Of a stretch of 5,474 bases of DNA, positions 1 to 5,474 are shown piece after piece. Each line of letters starts with the position of its first letter. The stretch's first letter is position 1. The translations under genes and the position numbers were made by a program. The notes below the pieces were generated by a model. The model saw only the letters and a program-made list of their open reading frames with translations, made no database searches and was not told the origin of the DNA. The stretch comes from Candidatus Desantisiibacteriota bacterium (GTDB taxonomy: Bacteria; JACRDZ01): contig JACQWU010000163.1 in the NCBI GenBank assembly GCA_016209155.1, forward strand, positions 1 through 5,474, read 5' to 3'.

Positions 1-1
1 T

Positions 2-559
2 GGAGACTATATTTCCGCAAATTTTTCAGCTTCAGCTGATTTCAAAGTTGGCGAGGCCATACGATATCTCCATAACCTTGATTACACTGTCCGAATTAAA
101 TATAAAGAATTTATCAACAGAAAAGAAGAAGAAAGAAGAATCATTTTTGAACTGCAAAAAAAATTCTTACTGCTCAATACGCTCAATGGATACAACTATA
201 TAAGTGCAGTAGAACAAGATGAAAGAGCAAGAATACATGAATTTATGGAAAGATTGGTGGAGGATAAAGGAATTAGAAAGGACAAAGTCCAACAAGCAGA
301 ATTGAAACCTGTTGCAGAAACAAAATCTATCATAAGGAGATCGGCTTCCAACATAGATATTATTAAAGAAATCTGCAAAAAACTTGGGCAAGATGGAAAA
401 GATATTCAACGTAAAGATGTATTGGCAGAAGCCCAAAGACTTGGGATAAAGCCATCATCTGTTCTGCTTGCTGATTATTGTGACAATACCAAAACCGGTA
501 ACTGGTCGCCACATAAATTTTTACATTCAGTTAGTCCGGGTAGATACAGATTGAAATGA
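2..559 (+). CDS. C-terminal part of an uncharacterised protein with a restriction/defence-associated winged-helix-like tail (5' end outside window)
   Basis: The reading frame is open from base 2 to the TGA at 557-559 (185 residues visible), so the gene enters from the left. The ATG at 245 is internal: the same frame upstream encodes plausible protein with no stop. The visible N-terminal half is charged and probably helical (Arg/Lys/Glu-rich around visible residues 32-50, including NRKEEERR). A linker follows, then a C-terminal domain of about 68 residues beginning IDIIKEICKKLG. That domain contains KPSSVLLADYCDN and ends GRYRLK. The pattern PSSV...DYC.N...GRYR resembles a small winged-helix-type domain (DUF7669-like) found at the ends of HNH/restriction-type and other defence proteins. 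This assignment is from memory of the family pattern and is tentative. The catalytic part, if any, lies upstream. No convincing terminator follows directly. The gene converges on tilS. Confidence 0.72.
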   Translation, partial: GDYISANFSASADFKVGEAIRYLHNLDYTVRIKYKEFINRKEEERRIIFELQKKFLLLNTLNGYNYISAVEQDERARIHEFMERLVEDKGIRKDKVQQAELKPVAETKSIIRRSASNIDIIKEICKKLGQDGKDIQRKDVLAEAQRLGIKPSSVLLADYCDNTKTGNWSPHKFLHSVSPGRYRLK

Positions 560-717
560 ATTGATAAAAAGTAAGATTATAGGGTCAATAGATGGTGCAA
601 TAAGACTTATATGTATTACCACCTAATTTTTATATTACAAAATTTAGAAACCGCCAATACATCACGTCATAATAAGGAAAATATTTCTTACGAATTGTGT
701 ATATTGCATTTGTAGCG

Positions 718-735
718 GGTGAATTAACATTCACC
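718..735. repeat. Short perfect hairpin (7-bp stem, 4-nt loop)
   Basis: GGTGAAT at 718-724 pairs with ATTCACC at 729-735 around the loop TAAC. The surrounding TGTAGCGGGTGAATT resembles degenerate copies of the interspersed 'TGTAGGGGCGRATT' type of palindromic repeat seen in many environmental Gram-negative genomes. That resemblance is a recollection, not a search result. Confidence 0.4.
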
Positions 736-762
736 TTGTTTATAGGGTTGTCCAAAAAGGTA

Positions 763-838
763 TCATTCCGCACTCGATGCGGAATCCAGATTTTAGAGCA
801 ATGGCTTAAATACTGGATTCCCGCCTTCGCGGGAATGA
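763..838. repeat. REP-like nested inverted repeat ('PAKAGIQ' type)
   Basis: Two small hairpins sit back to back. ATTCCGCA (765-772) pairs with TGCGGAAT (778-785), and ATTCCCGC (817-824) pairs with GCGGGAAT (829-836). The two hairpins are also imperfect inverted copies of each other: the left one starts TCATTCC and ends CCAG (786-789), while the right one starts CTGG (813-816) and ends GGAATGA. The spacer between them (790-812) is AT-rich. Read on the minus strand, the right arm encodes the familiar spurious peptide VIPAKAGIQ, the hallmark of a widespread extragenic palindrome family in Proteobacteria and relatives. Such elements are usually mobilised in trans by a REP-associated (TnpA-REP/Y1) transposase. 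None is visible here. Confidence 0.85.
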
Positions 839-898
839 CGGGAAAGTGGTAGAGATTTTTCCCTCTATCACCTTTATCGCTTCTCTTCAACAAGTTTC

Positions 899-2305
899 CT
901 ATGTAGCAAATGCTATTTCTTCAATTTTTATTTCTATTATATTTTTATCTTTTTCAGCAGCTTTATATTTATCGCTTCTGCGCACACCCATAACCCATAA
1001 GATTTCATTCTTATATAAAAGAAGCGGTATTTTATCCCTTTCATATACAGGAATTTTCATATCAATAAAAAAATCCTTTAGTTTCCTGCTTCCTTTCATA
1101 CCTGACGGGATAAAACGGTCACCATGACGGCGGTTGCGTACAATGAAATTGTCGGGTTTATCCGGAATAGAAAAATAAATAGTTTTTTCATTTTCAATAT
1201 ATGCTTTACTAAATTTTTTCTTCAAAGCGATTTTAATTTTTATATTGAATTGAGATAAAAAGGTATTGCATGGAACAGGAATTTTAAATTCATAAAGAGG
1301 AAAGTCATCTATCTTTTTAGAAAAAACAAGATTTCCGTATTCATTCATTACCGTATAATCACCGGAAAGATTTATTTTTTTTCCGGTTTTGTTTAAAGAC
1401 AGCTTCTCTATTGATTCAATATTTTCATAATTTACAGCATTAATATTACCTTTTAATTCGGATAAAACATCAAAAATAATCCGCTTTCTTATTGCCGGAT
1501 GAAGCCTATTTAAAGAATCTATGCTCATTATAAATTTATCATTTTCTTTTTTTACAATTTCACTGAAATATTTTCCGGTGATTTTATTTAAATAATCATT
1601 CTCGTCTTTCAATATTTTGCAGAGCTTTGAGATAGAACTGTCAATGTCAGGATTGTATTTTTCCCTAATCAAAGGAATCAGATTATGTCTTATATGGTTT
1701 CTACGATAATAATCGAAAAAATTTGAACTGTCTTCCCTGTAAGTTATTTTATTTTTCAGAATATAAGCTTCTATATCCTTTCTTGAAATTTCCAAAAAGG
1801 GCCGGATTAAGGTTATTCCGTTTGCTATTTCCATGATATATTGCATGCCTATAAGTCCTCTTGTGCCGCATCCCCTAAAAAGATGCAGTAAGACTGTTTC
1901 TGTCTGATCCTCATGATTATGTCCGGCAGCTATACGATTACAATGATACTTAATTGCAGTTTTCATTAAAAATTCATACCTCAGATTTCTCGCAGTATCC
2001 TGGACAGAAACTGATTTTTCTTTTTCCAAAAGTTTTGGAATATTCATTTTTACAATAGTGCACGGGACAGCTAATTTACGGCATAACTCTTTAATAAAAA
2101 GCGCATCCTTATCTGATTCTTTTCCGCGAAAACCGTGATTAAAATGCGCCGCATGTAATTTTATTCCTAAATCTTTTTTCAGCTTGCAAAAAATATTAAG
2201 CAATACGGAGGAATCAATACCACCTGAAACTGCAAGCAGTATCCTATCTCCTTTATTTACTAATTTATTTTCATGAATAATTTTCAATATTTTATCTTTT
2301 AACAT
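899..2305 (-). CDS. tilS: tRNA(Ile)-lysidine synthase TilS
   Basis: TilS uses ATP and lysine to convert cytidine 34 of the CAU anticodon of tRNA(Ile2) to lysidine, so that the tRNA reads AUA and is charged with isoleucine. It is a cytosolic and normally essential enzyme. The 468-residue product is full length for the long (three-domain) form. The N-terminal PP-loop ATPase domain shows SGGIDS at 27-32, HFNHGFRG at 54-61, ARNLRY at 105-110, AGHNHEDQTETVLLHLFRG at 127-145, REDSSN at 190-195 and RRNHIRHNLIP at 201-211. A middle helical substrate domain follows. The C-terminal TilS domain is recognisable at about 388-443 (RNRRHGDRFIPSGMKGSRKL, then DFFID, RDKIPLL and WVMGVRRSD). The ATG at 2305-2303 directly follows the stop of the upstream NTPase gene, with AGAAGG six bases before it, so the two are probably translationally coupled. 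ATA codons are common throughout this window, in line with a need for lysidine. Confidence 0.97.
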   Translation of the reverse strand: MLKDKILKIIHENKLVNKGDRILLAVSGGIDSSVLLNIFCKLKKDLGIKLHAAHFNHGFRGKESDKDALFIKELCRKLAVPCTIVKMNIPKLLEKEKSVSVQDTARNLRYEFLMKTAIKYHCNRIAAGHNHEDQTETVLLHLFRGCGTRGLIGMQYIMEIANGITLIRPFLEISRKDIEAYILKNKITYREDSSNFFDYYRRNHIRHNLIPLIREKYNPDIDSSISKLCKILKDENDYLNKITGKYFSEIVKKENDKFIMSIDSLNRLHPAIRKRIIFDVLSELKGNINAVNYENIESIEKLSLNKTGKKINLSGDYTVMNEYGNLVFSKKIDDFPLYEFKIPVPCNTFLSQFNIKIKIALKKKFSKAYIENEKTIYFSIPDKPDNFIVRNRRHGDRFIPSGMKGSRKLKDFFIDMKIPVYERDKIPLLLYKNEILWVMGVRRSDKYKAAEKDKNIIEIKIEEIAFAT

Positions 2306-2890
2306 TTAAAGCCTTCTTATAATTTCATTTATCCAGTCATCTTTCATAATTGGATTTATTTTCTTATTATTATACCCGGTAAATTCCTCATTATCCATGA
2401 AAAATAACTTATTATTGTCTCTAATAATAAAAATATCTATTTTTTCTTTTATGCGTGCTGCGCTTGGTTTTAATTTTAAAAAACCGGTCTTTTCAATAAC
2501 CATTATAGATACATCCGCTTTACACACATCAAGAAAACTATTTCCTTCAACTATAATTCCGGGCAAACCGGATAAAGATGAGAGACACGCATCCACAGCC
2601 CTTTTTAATGCTTCAGGACGTGCCTTTATCCATAATACTCTACTTGCTCCTGCATTATACATCCGCCAGGTATCAGTACCGGGCTGCATAATAATTTTTT
2701 TATTTTCTTCAATATGGAAATCTCCGCTGAAACTGTTACAGACATTGCAGCTTTTACCGCGCGGACAGCTCCCGCCGGAACACCGTGTAATCTTCAAAGA
2801 TGCAAAGCCCGGCAAATGCCGTATTAAAGTGCATGCAATATGGGTTTTCCCTGCCGAGCTTGCGGCACCAGTTATAGAAATAATTTTCAA
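2306..2890 (-). CDS. MobB-like P-loop NTPase with a CX4CX5CX2C cysteine cluster
   Basis: This is a 194-residue soluble protein. A Walker A motif, TGAASSAGKTH, lies at residues 7-17. A GTDTWRMYNAGASRV segment at 71-85 resembles the G-K-D-(S/T)-x-R-(x)n-A-G-A motif of MobB (molybdopterin-guanine dinucleotide accessory GTPase). GIIVEGNS at 111-118 sits where MobB-type proteins carry the Walker B/EG motif. It differs from MobB in having four cysteines (C37, C42, C48, C51; CX4CX5CX2C) in place of the usual His-rich stretch after the first beta-hairpin. This suggests a bound metal or Fe-S cluster. The start is TTG at 2890-2888, chosen because GGGAG lies ten bases upstream and an in-frame TGA at 2911-2909 leaves no ATG or GTG alternative. 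The gene abuts tilS (TAAATG), so it is in the same operon. The true substrate is unknown, and no molybdenum-cofactor gene is visible. The homology level is an inference from motifs. Confidence 0.85.
   Translation of the reverse strand: MKIISITGAASSAGKTHIACTLIRHLPGFASLKITRCSGGSCPRGKSCNVCNSFSGDFHIEENKKIIMQPGTDTWRMYNAGASRVLWIKARPEALKRAVDACLSSLSGLPGIIVEGNSFLDVCKADVSIMVIEKTGFLKLKPSAARIKEKIDIFIIRDNNKLFFMDNEEFTGYNNKKINPIMKDDWINEIIRRL
2312..2317 (-). promoter_or_regulatory. Ribosome binding site of tilS inside the upstream gene
   Basis: On the minus strand AGAAGG lies six bases before the tilS ATG and within the last codons of the NTPase gene. It supports this start and suggests coupled translation. 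Confidence 0.7.
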
Positions 2891-2900
2891 GATATTTTTT

Positions 2901-2905
2901 CTCCC
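2901..2905 (-). promoter_or_regulatory. Ribosome binding site deciding a TTG start
   Basis: GGGAG on the minus strand is ten bases upstream of TTG (2890-2888). An in-frame stop at 2911-2909 rules out a more distant start, so this site fixes the N-terminus of the NTPase. Confidence 0.65.
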
Positions 2906-2947
2906 GTGTCAAAACCACTGACTAACACTACAACTAACTTTATTTTT

Positions 2948-2973
2948 AACCGCAAAGACACATAGGCACAAAG
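2948..2973. repeat. Short interspersed motif of the AACCGCAAAG...GGCACAAAG type
   Basis: The bases AACCGCAAAGACACATAGG followed by CACAAAG form a degenerate tandem of a (C)RCAAAG/GACACA-like unit. Very similar strings recur in intergenic regions of many anaerobic and environmental bacteria. This is recalled, not searched. Its function is unknown. Confidence 0.4.
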
Positions 2974-3033
2974 TATTTTTATTTATAATATAAGTCTCTT
3001 GATCCCATGTTTTAATATATATATAATATTTTC

Positions 3034-3143
3034 TCAGTTACCAGTGGAAGTGAATGTCATTGCGAGGAGCTTTATCCCGAAGCAATCTCAAAAAATAGAT
3101 TGCTTCGCTTCCGCTCGCAATAACAAATTCCACCGGTAACTGA
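3034..3143. repeat. 110-bp imperfect inverted repeat (MITE/REP-like element)
   Basis: There are three nested pairs of arms. The outer arms 3034-3049 and 3128-3143 match at 15 of 16 positions (TCAGTTACCAGTGGAA against TTCCACCGGTAACTGA). The middle arms 3056-3066 (GTCATTGCGAG) and 3114-3124 (CTCGCAATAAC) match at 10 of 11. The inner arms 3078-3088 (CGAAGCAATCT) and 3097-3107 (AGATTGCTTCG) are perfect around an 8-nt A-rich loop. The GTCATTGCGAGG...GAAGCAATCT core is a familiar interspersed palindrome in environmental Gram-negatives. The element has no coding capacity and no clear target-site duplication. It could be a non-autonomous mobile element mobilised in trans. Its position just upstream of the cytochrome promoter may also insulate the two divergent transcripts. 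Confidence 0.85.
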
Positions 3144-3170
3144 CCGATTACAGTCACTCCCTGTTTTTAC

Positions 3171-3198
3171 TTGACTTTTTTTATATGTTCGATAAAAT
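3171..3198 (+). promoter_or_regulatory. Sigma70-type promoter for the cytochrome cluster
   Basis: TTGACT (3171-3176; 5 of 6 to TTGACA) is followed after 16 bases by TAAAAT (3193-3198; 5 of 6 to TATAAT). Transcription would start near 3205, giving a leader of about 50 nt before the ATG at 3255. No operator or riboswitch was recognised. Confidence 0.6.
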
Positions 3199-3239
3199 AT
3201 TTGTATTGTTTAATCCAAAAATACGAAAACATGTTCTTT

Positions 3240-3244
3240 AGGGA
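3240..3244 (+). promoter_or_regulatory. Ribosome binding site for the cytochrome c gene
   Basis: AGGGA lies ten bases before ATG 3255. It favours that start over the in-frame ATG at 3231, which has no purine-rich sequence ahead and would place extra residues before the signal peptide. Confidence 0.55.
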
Positions 3245-3254
3245 ATTATTATAT

Positions 3255-3812
3255 ATGAAAAAACTTTTTTTCACTATAGTGTTGACATTCTCTGTCTTTT
3301 TTCTTTTCTGTAAATCATTATATTGTGAAGATATACCTTCTGCGTCGGCAAATTATAATACCTCTAAAACAGATATTAATAAAGAAAAAAACTTATCAAC
3401 TACGGTTTCAATTTCAAATAAACCTGCACCAAAATACGTCGGTGCCAAAGAATGCGGTATCTGCCATACAGGAAAAAAAATGAAAAACATTTATGAGAAC
3501 TGGCAAAAACAGGGACATTCCAGAGCTTTTGAACGTTTAAAAGGTGTCGATAAAGAAAATCCAAATTGCTTAAAATGCCACACAACCGGCTACGGGAAAG
3601 AAAAATTATACGCTGAAGTCAATCTTGAAGGGGTGCAATGCGAAGCATGCCACGGACCGGGAAGTTTATATCGCCCAATTGACATAATGGAAGACAGAAA
3701 AAGATCTAATGAACTTGGTTTGATATTTCCAATTGATCCCATGAAAGTATGCAGAGAATGCCACCTTCACCGTCAGGACAGAGTATCTCCTCTTTGCCCG
3801 GGAAGAGACTAA
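3255..3812 (+). CDS. Exported tetrahaem cytochrome c, cytochrome c554-like
   Basis: This is a 185-residue periplasmic electron-transfer protein. A Sec signal peptide (MKKLFFTIVLTFSVFFLF, probable cleavage near residue 24) is followed by a polar Ser/Thr/Lys/Asn linker to about residue 58. Four CXXCH haem c sites follow: CGICH 67-71, CLKCH 105-109, CEACH 129-133 and CRECH 166-170. The pattern YVGAKECGICH, W..QGHSRAF, CLKCHTTGYG and GVQCEACHGPGS is that of the cytochrome c554-like family (Cytochrome_C554 type). H88 in the GHS motif and H172 are possible distal ligands. ATG 3255 is chosen because the signal peptide begins there and AGGGA precedes it. The protein stops only 15 residues after the fourth haem (SPLCPGRD), shorter than many relatives, which continue with a Y...I.H segment. 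It is 16 bases from the next gene and probably shares its transcript. Partner and substrate are unknown. Confidence 0.92.
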   Translation: MKKLFFTIVLTFSVFFLFCKSLYCEDIPSASANYNTSKTDINKEKNLSTTVSISNKPAPKYVGAKECGICHTGKKMKNIYENWQKQGHSRAFERLKGVDKENPNCLKCHTTGYGKEKLYAEVNLEGVQCEACHGPGSLYRPIDIMEDRKRSNELGLIFPIDPMKVCRECHLHRQDRVSPLCPGRD

Positions 3813-3828
3813 CTCTAATATAATTATT

Positions 3829-4707
3829 ATGAATAAATTTATATATTTTTTTATTTTCTGTATTTTTATTTTAACAGGCTGCAATTTAAGATCCGATAAA
3901 TTGTATGTGTTTGAGCTTCCGCATTCACCGACTGAAGCAGACTGGGAAAATGGGCTGCCCTATTATATTTCAATTGAAAAAGGCAAATTAAATCATATAT
4001 CCACTGAAACAAAAAAACTTGATGATGAAATTGTTCATAAATCCAATAAAACCTGCCATCATGTTGAGGCAGTAAAACCGGTTACTGCTGAACTGACTTC
4101 CTTCCACACTAAAGACTTTTTTTTTATGAGAATAAAATGGCCGGATCCGGATATGGATAACAAACCGGCAGTCTGGGATGAAGGGAAGCAGGCATGGGAT
4201 AAAACTAAAGGCGCTGAAGATGGAATAAGTATATTATGGAATTTTACTGATAATTCATCTTACAATTGTTCTTCGAATTGCCATTTAGATGAATTCGAAG
4301 TTAAAAATTCAATACTGACTCCATTTAATAAAATGAAAACAAAAAATGAGGAAAGACATGATTTCTGGAGCTGGTGGGCGGGAAGAAATAAAACTGAAAA
4401 ATATATTATTCCCGGCTTTATCGATTCAACCGGTATCCATGAGGAAAAGCAATACTTGACAAATTCCGGTAAAATACCTATTATGTCCTATGGTTATTAT
4501 AAGGATGGCTATTGGATAGTAACGATTTCAAGTCCATTAAATTATTTTAAACTTCCATCCAATCAATTTGTTCCGGACAAATCTTATCAGTTTCAAATTG
4601 CTTTTTTTGACAACAGTTATTCCGATCACAGTATAACACTAACTATGCAGAATGCAGTTTTTGTAGAAAGTAAAATAATAAGAGATGAAACAAAGGATTT
4701 TGATTAA
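3829..4707 (+). CDS. Lipoprotein with ethylbenzene-dehydrogenase-like haem-binding domain (EB_dh type)
   Basis: The 292-residue product begins with a lipoprotein signal (MNKFIYFFIFCIFILTGC). The lipobox LTGC at 15-18 makes Cys18 the probable lipid-anchored N-terminus. The mature part shows the layout of the EB_dh domain that binds haem in the gamma subunits of ethylbenzene and dimethylsulfide dehydrogenases and in related cytochromes: an early W39, a V-TAEL strand, FFFMRIKWPDPDMDN at 97-111, W116 and W123, AEDGISILWN at 129-138, HDFWSWWAGR at 177-186, and a late SYQFQIAFFDNSYSDHS at 252-268. It also carries CSSNCH (147-152), a CX3CH spacing that could attach haem covalently, and a separate TCHH at 75-78. 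No Shine-Dalgarno sequence lies in the 16 bases before the ATG, so translation may depend on the upstream cytochrome gene. The EB_dh assignment is by motif recognition. Haem binding is inferred. Confidence 0.85.
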   Translation: MNKFIYFFIFCIFILTGCNLRSDKLYVFELPHSPTEADWENGLPYYISIEKGKLNHISTETKKLDDEIVHKSNKTCHHVEAVKPVTAELTSFHTKDFFFMRIKWPDPDMDNKPAVWDEGKQAWDKTKGAEDGISILWNFTDNSSYNCSSNCHLDEFEVKNSILTPFNKMKTKNEERHDFWSWWAGRNKTEKYIIPGFIDSTGIHEEKQYLTNSGKIPIMSYGYYKDGYWIVTISSPLNYFKLPSNQFVPDKSYQFQIAFFDNSYSDHSITLTMQNAVFVESKIIRDETKDFD

Positions 4708-4750
4708 CGGTATAAAATAAGAATGAAATATTGTATTATAAATAATTTAT

Positions 4751-4754
4751 GGAG
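4751..4754 (+). promoter_or_regulatory. Ribosome binding site for the beta-sandwich protein gene
   Basis: GGAG lies eight bases before ATG 4763, directly ahead of a clear signal peptide, and fixes that start. Confidence 0.65.
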
Positions 4755-4762
4755 ATTTTCAG

Positions 4763-5474
4763 ATGAAAAAAATTAAAACTATATCAATTTTCATAATGCT
4801 GGTCAGTATTTTTTCTGTAAGCGCAAGTCATGCTGAATGGTTCTGGAATAAAAAGAAAGATCAAAAATTAATTATCTCAGGTAAAGCTGTTATACCTGTT
4901 GAAAAAATAAAAATTTATATTTACAAAGAAGGTACAGATTTGCATGGTCCTTATTATGCTGTCTCAGAACCAACCGACCCTGAAGGAAATTTTAACATTG
5001 AGCTTCCTGAAGGAACGTATTTTTTTGTTGCCAGAAAAAGAACAAGCGGAGACGATTCAGGACCGCTTGTCCAGGGAGATATAAAAAGCAATTTTATCGG
5101 ACCGATTAAAATTAAAAACGGTGAACCAATTAATCTTAATTTTAACTGTTTTACAAAACAGGGCGATGAAAAAACCACGGGTGCTCCTCTTGTAAATAAA
5201 ACAACAGGTATATCCGGAACAATCCGCGATGCTGACGGAAATACAGTGGCAGGTGTTCGTATTCATGTTTATACATTTATACAAATGTCGGAAAGGCCAA
5301 AGTTTGTTTCCGCTAAAACAAGCCCGGACGGGAAATATATTATTTATCTGCCTGAAGGCGGTACTTATTATTTGTGTGCCCGTGACAGGTTTGGCGGTCC
5401 GTCGAAAATCGGCGACTTATACGGCAGATATGATCAGGGAACAATCAATCCTTCGGCAATTGTTGTGAGAGATA
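4763..5474 (+). CDS. Exported protein with two carboxypeptidase-regulatory-like beta-sandwich repeats (3' end outside window)
   Basis: This frame is open from ATG 4763 to the window edge (237 residues seen). A Sec signal peptide (MKKIKTISIFIMLVSIFSVS, then ASHA, cleavage near residue 24) leads into two related domains. Repeat 1 (about residues 36-128) has ISGKAVIPVEKIKIYIY, TDPEGNFNIELPEGTYFFVA and a GPLVQGD segment. Repeat 2 (about 149-237 onward) has ISGTIRDADGNTVAGVRIHV, TSPDGKYIIYLPEGGTYYLC and an IGDLYGRYDQG segment. The G-x-V-x-D-x-x-G, T-D-x-x-G-x-Y/F and L-P-x-G-x-Y signatures are those of carboxypeptidase-regulatory/CnaB-like folds, which act in binding, adhesion or scaffolding. No enzyme active site is visible in the part seen. 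It lies 55 bases downstream of the lipoprotein gene on the same strand, probably in the same operon or with its own weak promoter. The full length and any C-terminal haem or anchor domain are unknown. Confidence 0.87.
   Translation, partial: MKKIKTISIFIMLVSIFSVSASHAEWFWNKKKDQKLIISGKAVIPVEKIKIYIYKEGTDLHGPYYAVSEPTDPEGNFNIELPEGTYFFVARKRTSGDDSGPLVQGDIKSNFIGPIKIKNGEPINLNFNCFTKQGDEKTTGAPLVNKTTGISGTIRDADGNTVAGVRIHVYTFIQMSERPKFVSAKTSPDGKYIIYLPEGGTYYLCARDRFGGPSKIGDLYGRYDQGTINPSAIVVRD
4868..5146 (+). repeat. Protein-level repeat 1 of the beta-sandwich protein
   Basis: Residues 36-128 are the first copy of a beta-sandwich domain. They align with residues 149-237 through the shared signatures TxPxGxxxIxLPEGTYxxxAR and a following G-rich loop with GD. 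The similarity is at protein level only; DNA identity is low, implying an old duplication. Confidence 0.7.
5207..5474 (+). repeat. Protein-level repeat 2 of the beta-sandwich protein (cut by window end)
   Basis: Residues 149-237 form the second copy. It has a longer loop between the GVRIHVY strand and TSPDGKY, an extra Gly in LPEGGTYYL, and a unique Cys205. The copy, and possibly further ones, continues beyond the window. Confidence 0.65.

Follow-up and report, generated by a model that had tools for sequence, protein, structure and literature searches.

A conserved four-gene set, proposed as an envelope electron-transfer module, beside a local tetrahaem cytochrome in Candidatus Desantisiibacteriota

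Three consecutive genes for exported proteins close a 5,474-nucleotide stretch of DNA from a Candidatus Desantisiibacteriota bacterium (contig JACQWU010000163.1, positions 1 to 5,474; hereafter the window), encoding in turn a tetrahaem c-type cytochrome, an EB_dh-family lipoprotein and a two-domain β-sandwich protein. The original prediction was that all three belong to one cell-envelope redox module that operates without a molybdoenzyme. We therefore asked whether these genes form such a unit, which further genes belong to it, and what function it might serve.

Genes at the window end and beyond it

The window (G000:C105:1-5474; contig locus label L017) belongs to a contig of 12,267 bases in a genome that is 79 percent complete. 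The three genes were confirmed as open reading frames on one strand (Table 1), each with a Pfam domain above the cut-off: 48.4 bits against PF13435 Cytochrome_C554 (cut-off 20.8) for the cytochrome, with its four haem motifs, 55.9 bits against PF09459 EB_dh (cut-off 33.3) for the lipoprotein, and 40.2 bits against PF13620 CarboxypepD_reg (cut-off 32.3) for the β-sandwich protein. The intergenic gaps of 16 bases (3813-3828) and 55 bases (4708-4762) were also given correctly, and neither contains a plus-strand terminator-like site. A promoter had been proposed before the first gene; the string is present, but such sites occur at near shuffle frequency (13 found against 9.2 +/- 2.3 expected from shuffles), which makes it weak evidence for a promoter.

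The window end abuts a run of N (5475-5541) in which the 3' end of the β-sandwich gene, cut at position 5474, is lost; a single 489-aa frame that reads across this gap in L017, between the β-sandwich and HEAT genes, is an artefact. Further cytochromes, porins or a molybdoenzyme had been suggested as possible continuations past 5474. The HEAT-repeat and NapH-like genes follow instead, with a Na+/H+ exchanger gene between them that was seen in this genome only among the module loci examined. No decahaem gene and no porin was recognised on the 12.3-kb contig or at the module loci, and a porin-cytochrome extracellular conduit of the MtrCAB type was rejected on these grounds.

Table 1. Features of the window and of the contig downstream of it
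Feature	Position	Strand	Remarks
Promoter-like site TTGACT-16-TAAAAT	3171..3198	+	10/12 consensus matches; upstream of the tetrahaem gene
Exported tetrahaem c-type cytochrome, Cytochrome_C554-like	3255..3812	+	185 aa; signal-like N-terminus
EB_dh-family lipoprotein, module gene 1	3829..4707	+	292 aa; lipobox LTGC18
Two-domain CarboxypepD_reg β-sandwich protein, module gene 2	4763..5474	+	exported, signal peptide; 237 aa to window end
HEAT-repeat gene	contig 5542-6232		start lost in gap
Na+/H+ antiporter/exchanger (PF00999)	contig 6243-7454		between HEAT and NapH-like genes
NapH-like membrane iron-sulphur protein	contig 7520-8980		486 aa; Fer4_5 and 4Fe-4S motifs

A gene order found in four phyla

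A profile search with the β-sandwich protein returned an orthologue at E < 1e-70 in 9 of 386 genomes, and in eight of these the other three module genes lie beside it in the same order. Additional loci were obtained by searching the phyla of three β-sandwich matches, giving a total of 13 complete and four incomplete loci. The order EB_dh, β-sandwich, HEAT, NapH-like, on one strand, is thus present at 13 loci in 13 genomes of four phyla (G000, G001, G003; G278, G395; G288; G110, G386, G246, G373, G387, G394, G391). Among the incomplete loci, L161 has the EB_dh and β-sandwich genes, a partial HEAT match and no detected NapH-like reading frame; L162 meets a contig end; a stop breaks the β-sandwich gene of L088; and L082 has only the HEAT and β-sandwich genes. 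The four-gene set is a conserved unit in several phyla, and the cytochrome of the window lies outside it.

The closest comparison comes from the window's own phylum, where G001 and G003 (JAQUKH010000001.1, bacterium isolate STD1_102) both have the four-gene order without the cytochrome and without the exchanger, and with murB, identified by reading the sequence, upstream on the opposite strand. Two scans of a genome-contig collection matched only G003 and no further relative, and a full-text literature search of partial coverage found no paper on the four-gene set.

Module proteins and a proposed electron route

The EB_dh lipoprotein shares with the EbdC and NxrC γ subunits the PF09459 match, a conserved Met and an alignment of W-rich strands, and canonical members of the family match NxrC and EbdC themselves. 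It differs from them in being a lipoprotein with additional CHH and CX3CH motifs, in having His in place of Lys, and in having no visible molybdoenzyme partner. In the window protein the CX3CH motif is C147-x3-C151-H152, followed by M169 and, toward the C-terminus, H267. All 14 of the module EB_dh proteins carry the CHH, the CX3CH, a Met 16 residues after it, and an FD...H element near the C-terminus, and in a tree they form one clade (support 0.90) within a larger CX3CH clade (0.97), which is separate from the proteins of haem-b type. Across the wider family, the CX3CH proteins are without the C-terminal GxK segment that most of the remainder carry; in the module proteins this segment is missing and an invariant His (H267) occupies the region.

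In EbDH, haem b is ligated by Lys and Met (PMC8840923), and the C-terminal Lys of the haem-b-type proteins is, from its conservation, the probable axial ligand. M169, which does not vary among the module proteins, is aligned with the conserved Met (MG) of EbdC and NxrC and by analogy may be an axial ligand as well. Because the CX3CH is invariant, a Met follows 16 residues on, and a His replaces the axial Lys, the comparison suggests that the module lipoprotein has an EB_dh fold modified to bind haem c covalently. CX3CH has been described as an 'atypical' haem motif in homologues of ImcH and CymA, which oxidise quinol at the inner membrane in extracellular electron transfer, and this offers a precedent for it in a quinol-linked cytochrome (PMC6295460); their architecture is different, the EB_dh lipoprotein of the module instead having a membrane iron-sulphur protein as its partner. 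Structure models built from two-row alignments (pLDDT 39.7 and 38.6) were too poor for use.

The NapH-like protein has invariant cysteines at C83/C86-P87, C161/C165-P166, C224-P and C239/C242/C245, thereby combining the Cys-Pro motifs at membrane helices with the ferredoxin-type cysteines by which NapH/NosR-like proteins were recognised. It shares Fer4_5, these helix-associated Cys-Pro motifs and the 4Fe-4S ligands with the NapH/NosR/MauN membrane ferredoxins, and differs from them in that an additional membrane segment at the C-terminus carries a DP.G motif and in having no flavin domain by Pfam. Its match to TIGR02163 (NapH/MauN) is weak, at 34.1 bits far below the cut-off of 213.05, and the ferredoxin-type cysteines are partly lost in the protein from G278.

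The β-sandwich proteins are characterised by the motif QMSERPK...GGTYYL.ARDRFGGP..GDLYGRYD, of which QMSERPK and GRYD are invariant, and their identity to the G003 protein ranges from 42 to 80 percent across loci. A PDB search with the β-sandwich profile gave no match.

On balance, we lean toward the four genes encoding a conserved cell-envelope electron-transfer module. The NapH-like protein, with its iron-sulphur clusters and extra C-terminal membrane helices, would exchange electrons with the quinone pool and pass them to the EB_dh-fold lipoprotein, which would hold one haem c through the CX3CH with M169 or H267 as second ligand; the β-sandwich and HEAT proteins may be scaffold, docking or assembly parts. 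This proposal draws on the synteny of 13 loci, the EB_dh motifs and clade, the Met alignment, the cysteines of the NapH-like protein and a nearby gene for ResB (cytochrome c biogenesis), which lies three genes upstream of EB_dh at most loci of one phylum. Against it stand the rarity of haem c sites of the CX3CH type, the sub-cut-off NapH score, the cysteine loss in G278, and the finding of no terminal oxidoreductase constant in the module neighbourhoods. The original idea of an envelope redox module that dispenses with a molybdoenzyme is therefore plausible, with HEAT and NapH-like genes joined to the EB_dh and β-sandwich pair. The gene set can be tested for an envelope redox function in several little-studied phyla, and its EB_dh branch marks an apparent shift from Lys/Met-ligated haem b to covalent haem c, away from molybdoenzymes.

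Neighbouring genes and competing explanations

In the two phyla that include G110 and G278, the genes on the 3' side of the module encode a small protein, either OpuAC-like or in the corresponding position, a PhnD-like binding protein, the selenium transporter YedE (379.7 bits against TIGR04112, cut-off 200), PqqD and radical SAM proteins, with a selenocysteine-lyase-like enzyme at some loci. Because YedE, PqqD and radical SAM genes adjoin it there, the module might power or aid the insertion of a periplasmic metal or chalcogen (selenium/sulphur) cofactor, rather than belong to a respiratory chain. NosR, which with NosDFY serves N2O reductase, provides the model for such a role, and NosD-like β-helix proteins are encoded nearby. 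However, selenium, PqqD and radical-SAM genes are absent beside the module in the window's contig and in G001 and G003, and no target enzyme was identified, and we regard this explanation as doubtful. We tentatively entertain a quinol-linked envelope complex of undescribed kind, with a haem c EB_dh protein, a NapH-like protein and β-sandwich/HEAT partners, engaged in selenium- or metal-cofactor handling and not serving a molybdoenzyme. Large conserved clusters of the module with YedE, a PhnD-like protein, PqqD and radical SAM genes are seen at L083, L157, L087, L160, L081 and L163, three of which include a selenocysteine-lyase-like gene. On the 5' side, the loci of the G110 phylum have DUF362, a second polyferredoxin, ResB and a two-component system.

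A different alternative is the one first proposed, in which the tetrahaem cytochrome, the EB_dh lipoprotein and the β-sandwich protein make up a single three-protein electron conduit, as their adjacency on one strand, the 16-base gap and the export of all three would allow. Cytochrome homologues are present in 54 of 386 genomes, but among 30 loci fetched a core module gene (EB_dh, β-sandwich or NapH-like) lies within 1.5 kb only at the window's own locus and at none of the 29 others, one of which has a weak HEAT match. Nor is a tetrahaem gene next to the module in any of the other genomes examined, including G001 and G003, and reading frames with at least two CXXCH motifs are absent from 15 of 17 module neighbourhoods, the exceptions being the window itself and a trihaem frame several kb away in G246. 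A second copy of the cytochrome in the same genome (on C281, 62 percent identical) adjoins housekeeping genes, proC- and divIVA-like as identified by reading the sequence. A conserved unit of cytochrome and EB_dh protein was accordingly rejected, and the three-protein conduit as a conserved unit is mostly refuted; even as a working assembly it appears unlikely. Of the predicted set, the EB_dh and β-sandwich pairing stands, the two genes being adjacent in all 13 four-gene loci of four phyla, and the proposed refutation, that homologues never co-occur, holds for the cytochrome but fails for this pair.

Since it is absent beside the module elsewhere and its homologues lie away from core module genes, the cytochrome is a local companion only. 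In the favoured electron-transfer module, this small and widespread protein, now directly upstream, is possibly co-transcribed with the module in this organism and would perhaps be an extra electron carrier. Its four CXXCH motifs (C67-H71, C105-H109, C129-H133 and C166-H170) resemble those of cytochrome c554 and of the tetrahaem C-terminal part of UshA_like_PCGU (78.5 bits to that part of NF041198); unlike UshA_like_PCGU, it has no nucleotidase part, and it scores under the equivalog cut-offs. Directly 5' of the gene, at window positions 3034-3143, imperfect 16-base terminal inverted repeats surround about 110 bases in a MITE-like arrangement, and this element may be linked to the local arrival of the cytochrome. 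In G002, a tetrahaem-like homologue adjoins a gene whose 617-aa product contains 22 CXXCH motifs (L049 3896-5749).

It is also improbable that the genes encode a structural or adhesion system of the envelope whose haem-like motifs would form disulphides or bind metal instead of haem. The β-sandwich and HEAT proteins are typical scaffolds, and β-sandwich paralogues cluster with FG-GAP/UnbV and β-helix proteins; against this, characterised members of the EB_dh fold bind haem, and a polytopic iron-sulphur protein is encoded at 13 of 13 complete loci. These paralogues, at L084, L089 and L082, lie among FG-GAP/UnbV, NosD-like β-helix, spermidine-synthase-like, DUF362 and polyferredoxin genes.

Finally, the EB_dh domain and its distant match to NxrC and EbdC would suit the γ subunit of a molybdoenzyme of the type II DMSO-reductase family that is encoded at another genomic site, but this is highly unlikely, as the Lys ligand is replaced, no such enzyme was identified in the module neighbourhoods examined and no α or β subunits were identified beside EB_dh. 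For the three molybdopterin proteins of G000 the best-scoring family is formate dehydrogenase α, and none comes near the TIGR03479 cut-off; no type II α subunit was seen in this 79 percent complete genome, and a partner of that type was rejected.

Several other elements were noted in the window. A palindromic element at 781-841, of a repetitive intergenic type, consists of the inverted repeat GGAATCCAGATTTTA/TAAATACTGGATTCC followed by CCGCCTTCGCGGGAATGACG. A gene at 2306-2890 adjoining tilS encodes a P-loop protein with weak, below-cut-off likeness to MobB and a Cys cluster, CSGGSCPRGKSCNVC. The start region of the β-sandwich gene (4726-4795) has matches of 33-70 bases, at 80-95 percent, to about ten other sites in the genome; these probably reflect A-rich ribosome-site and signal-peptide sequence.
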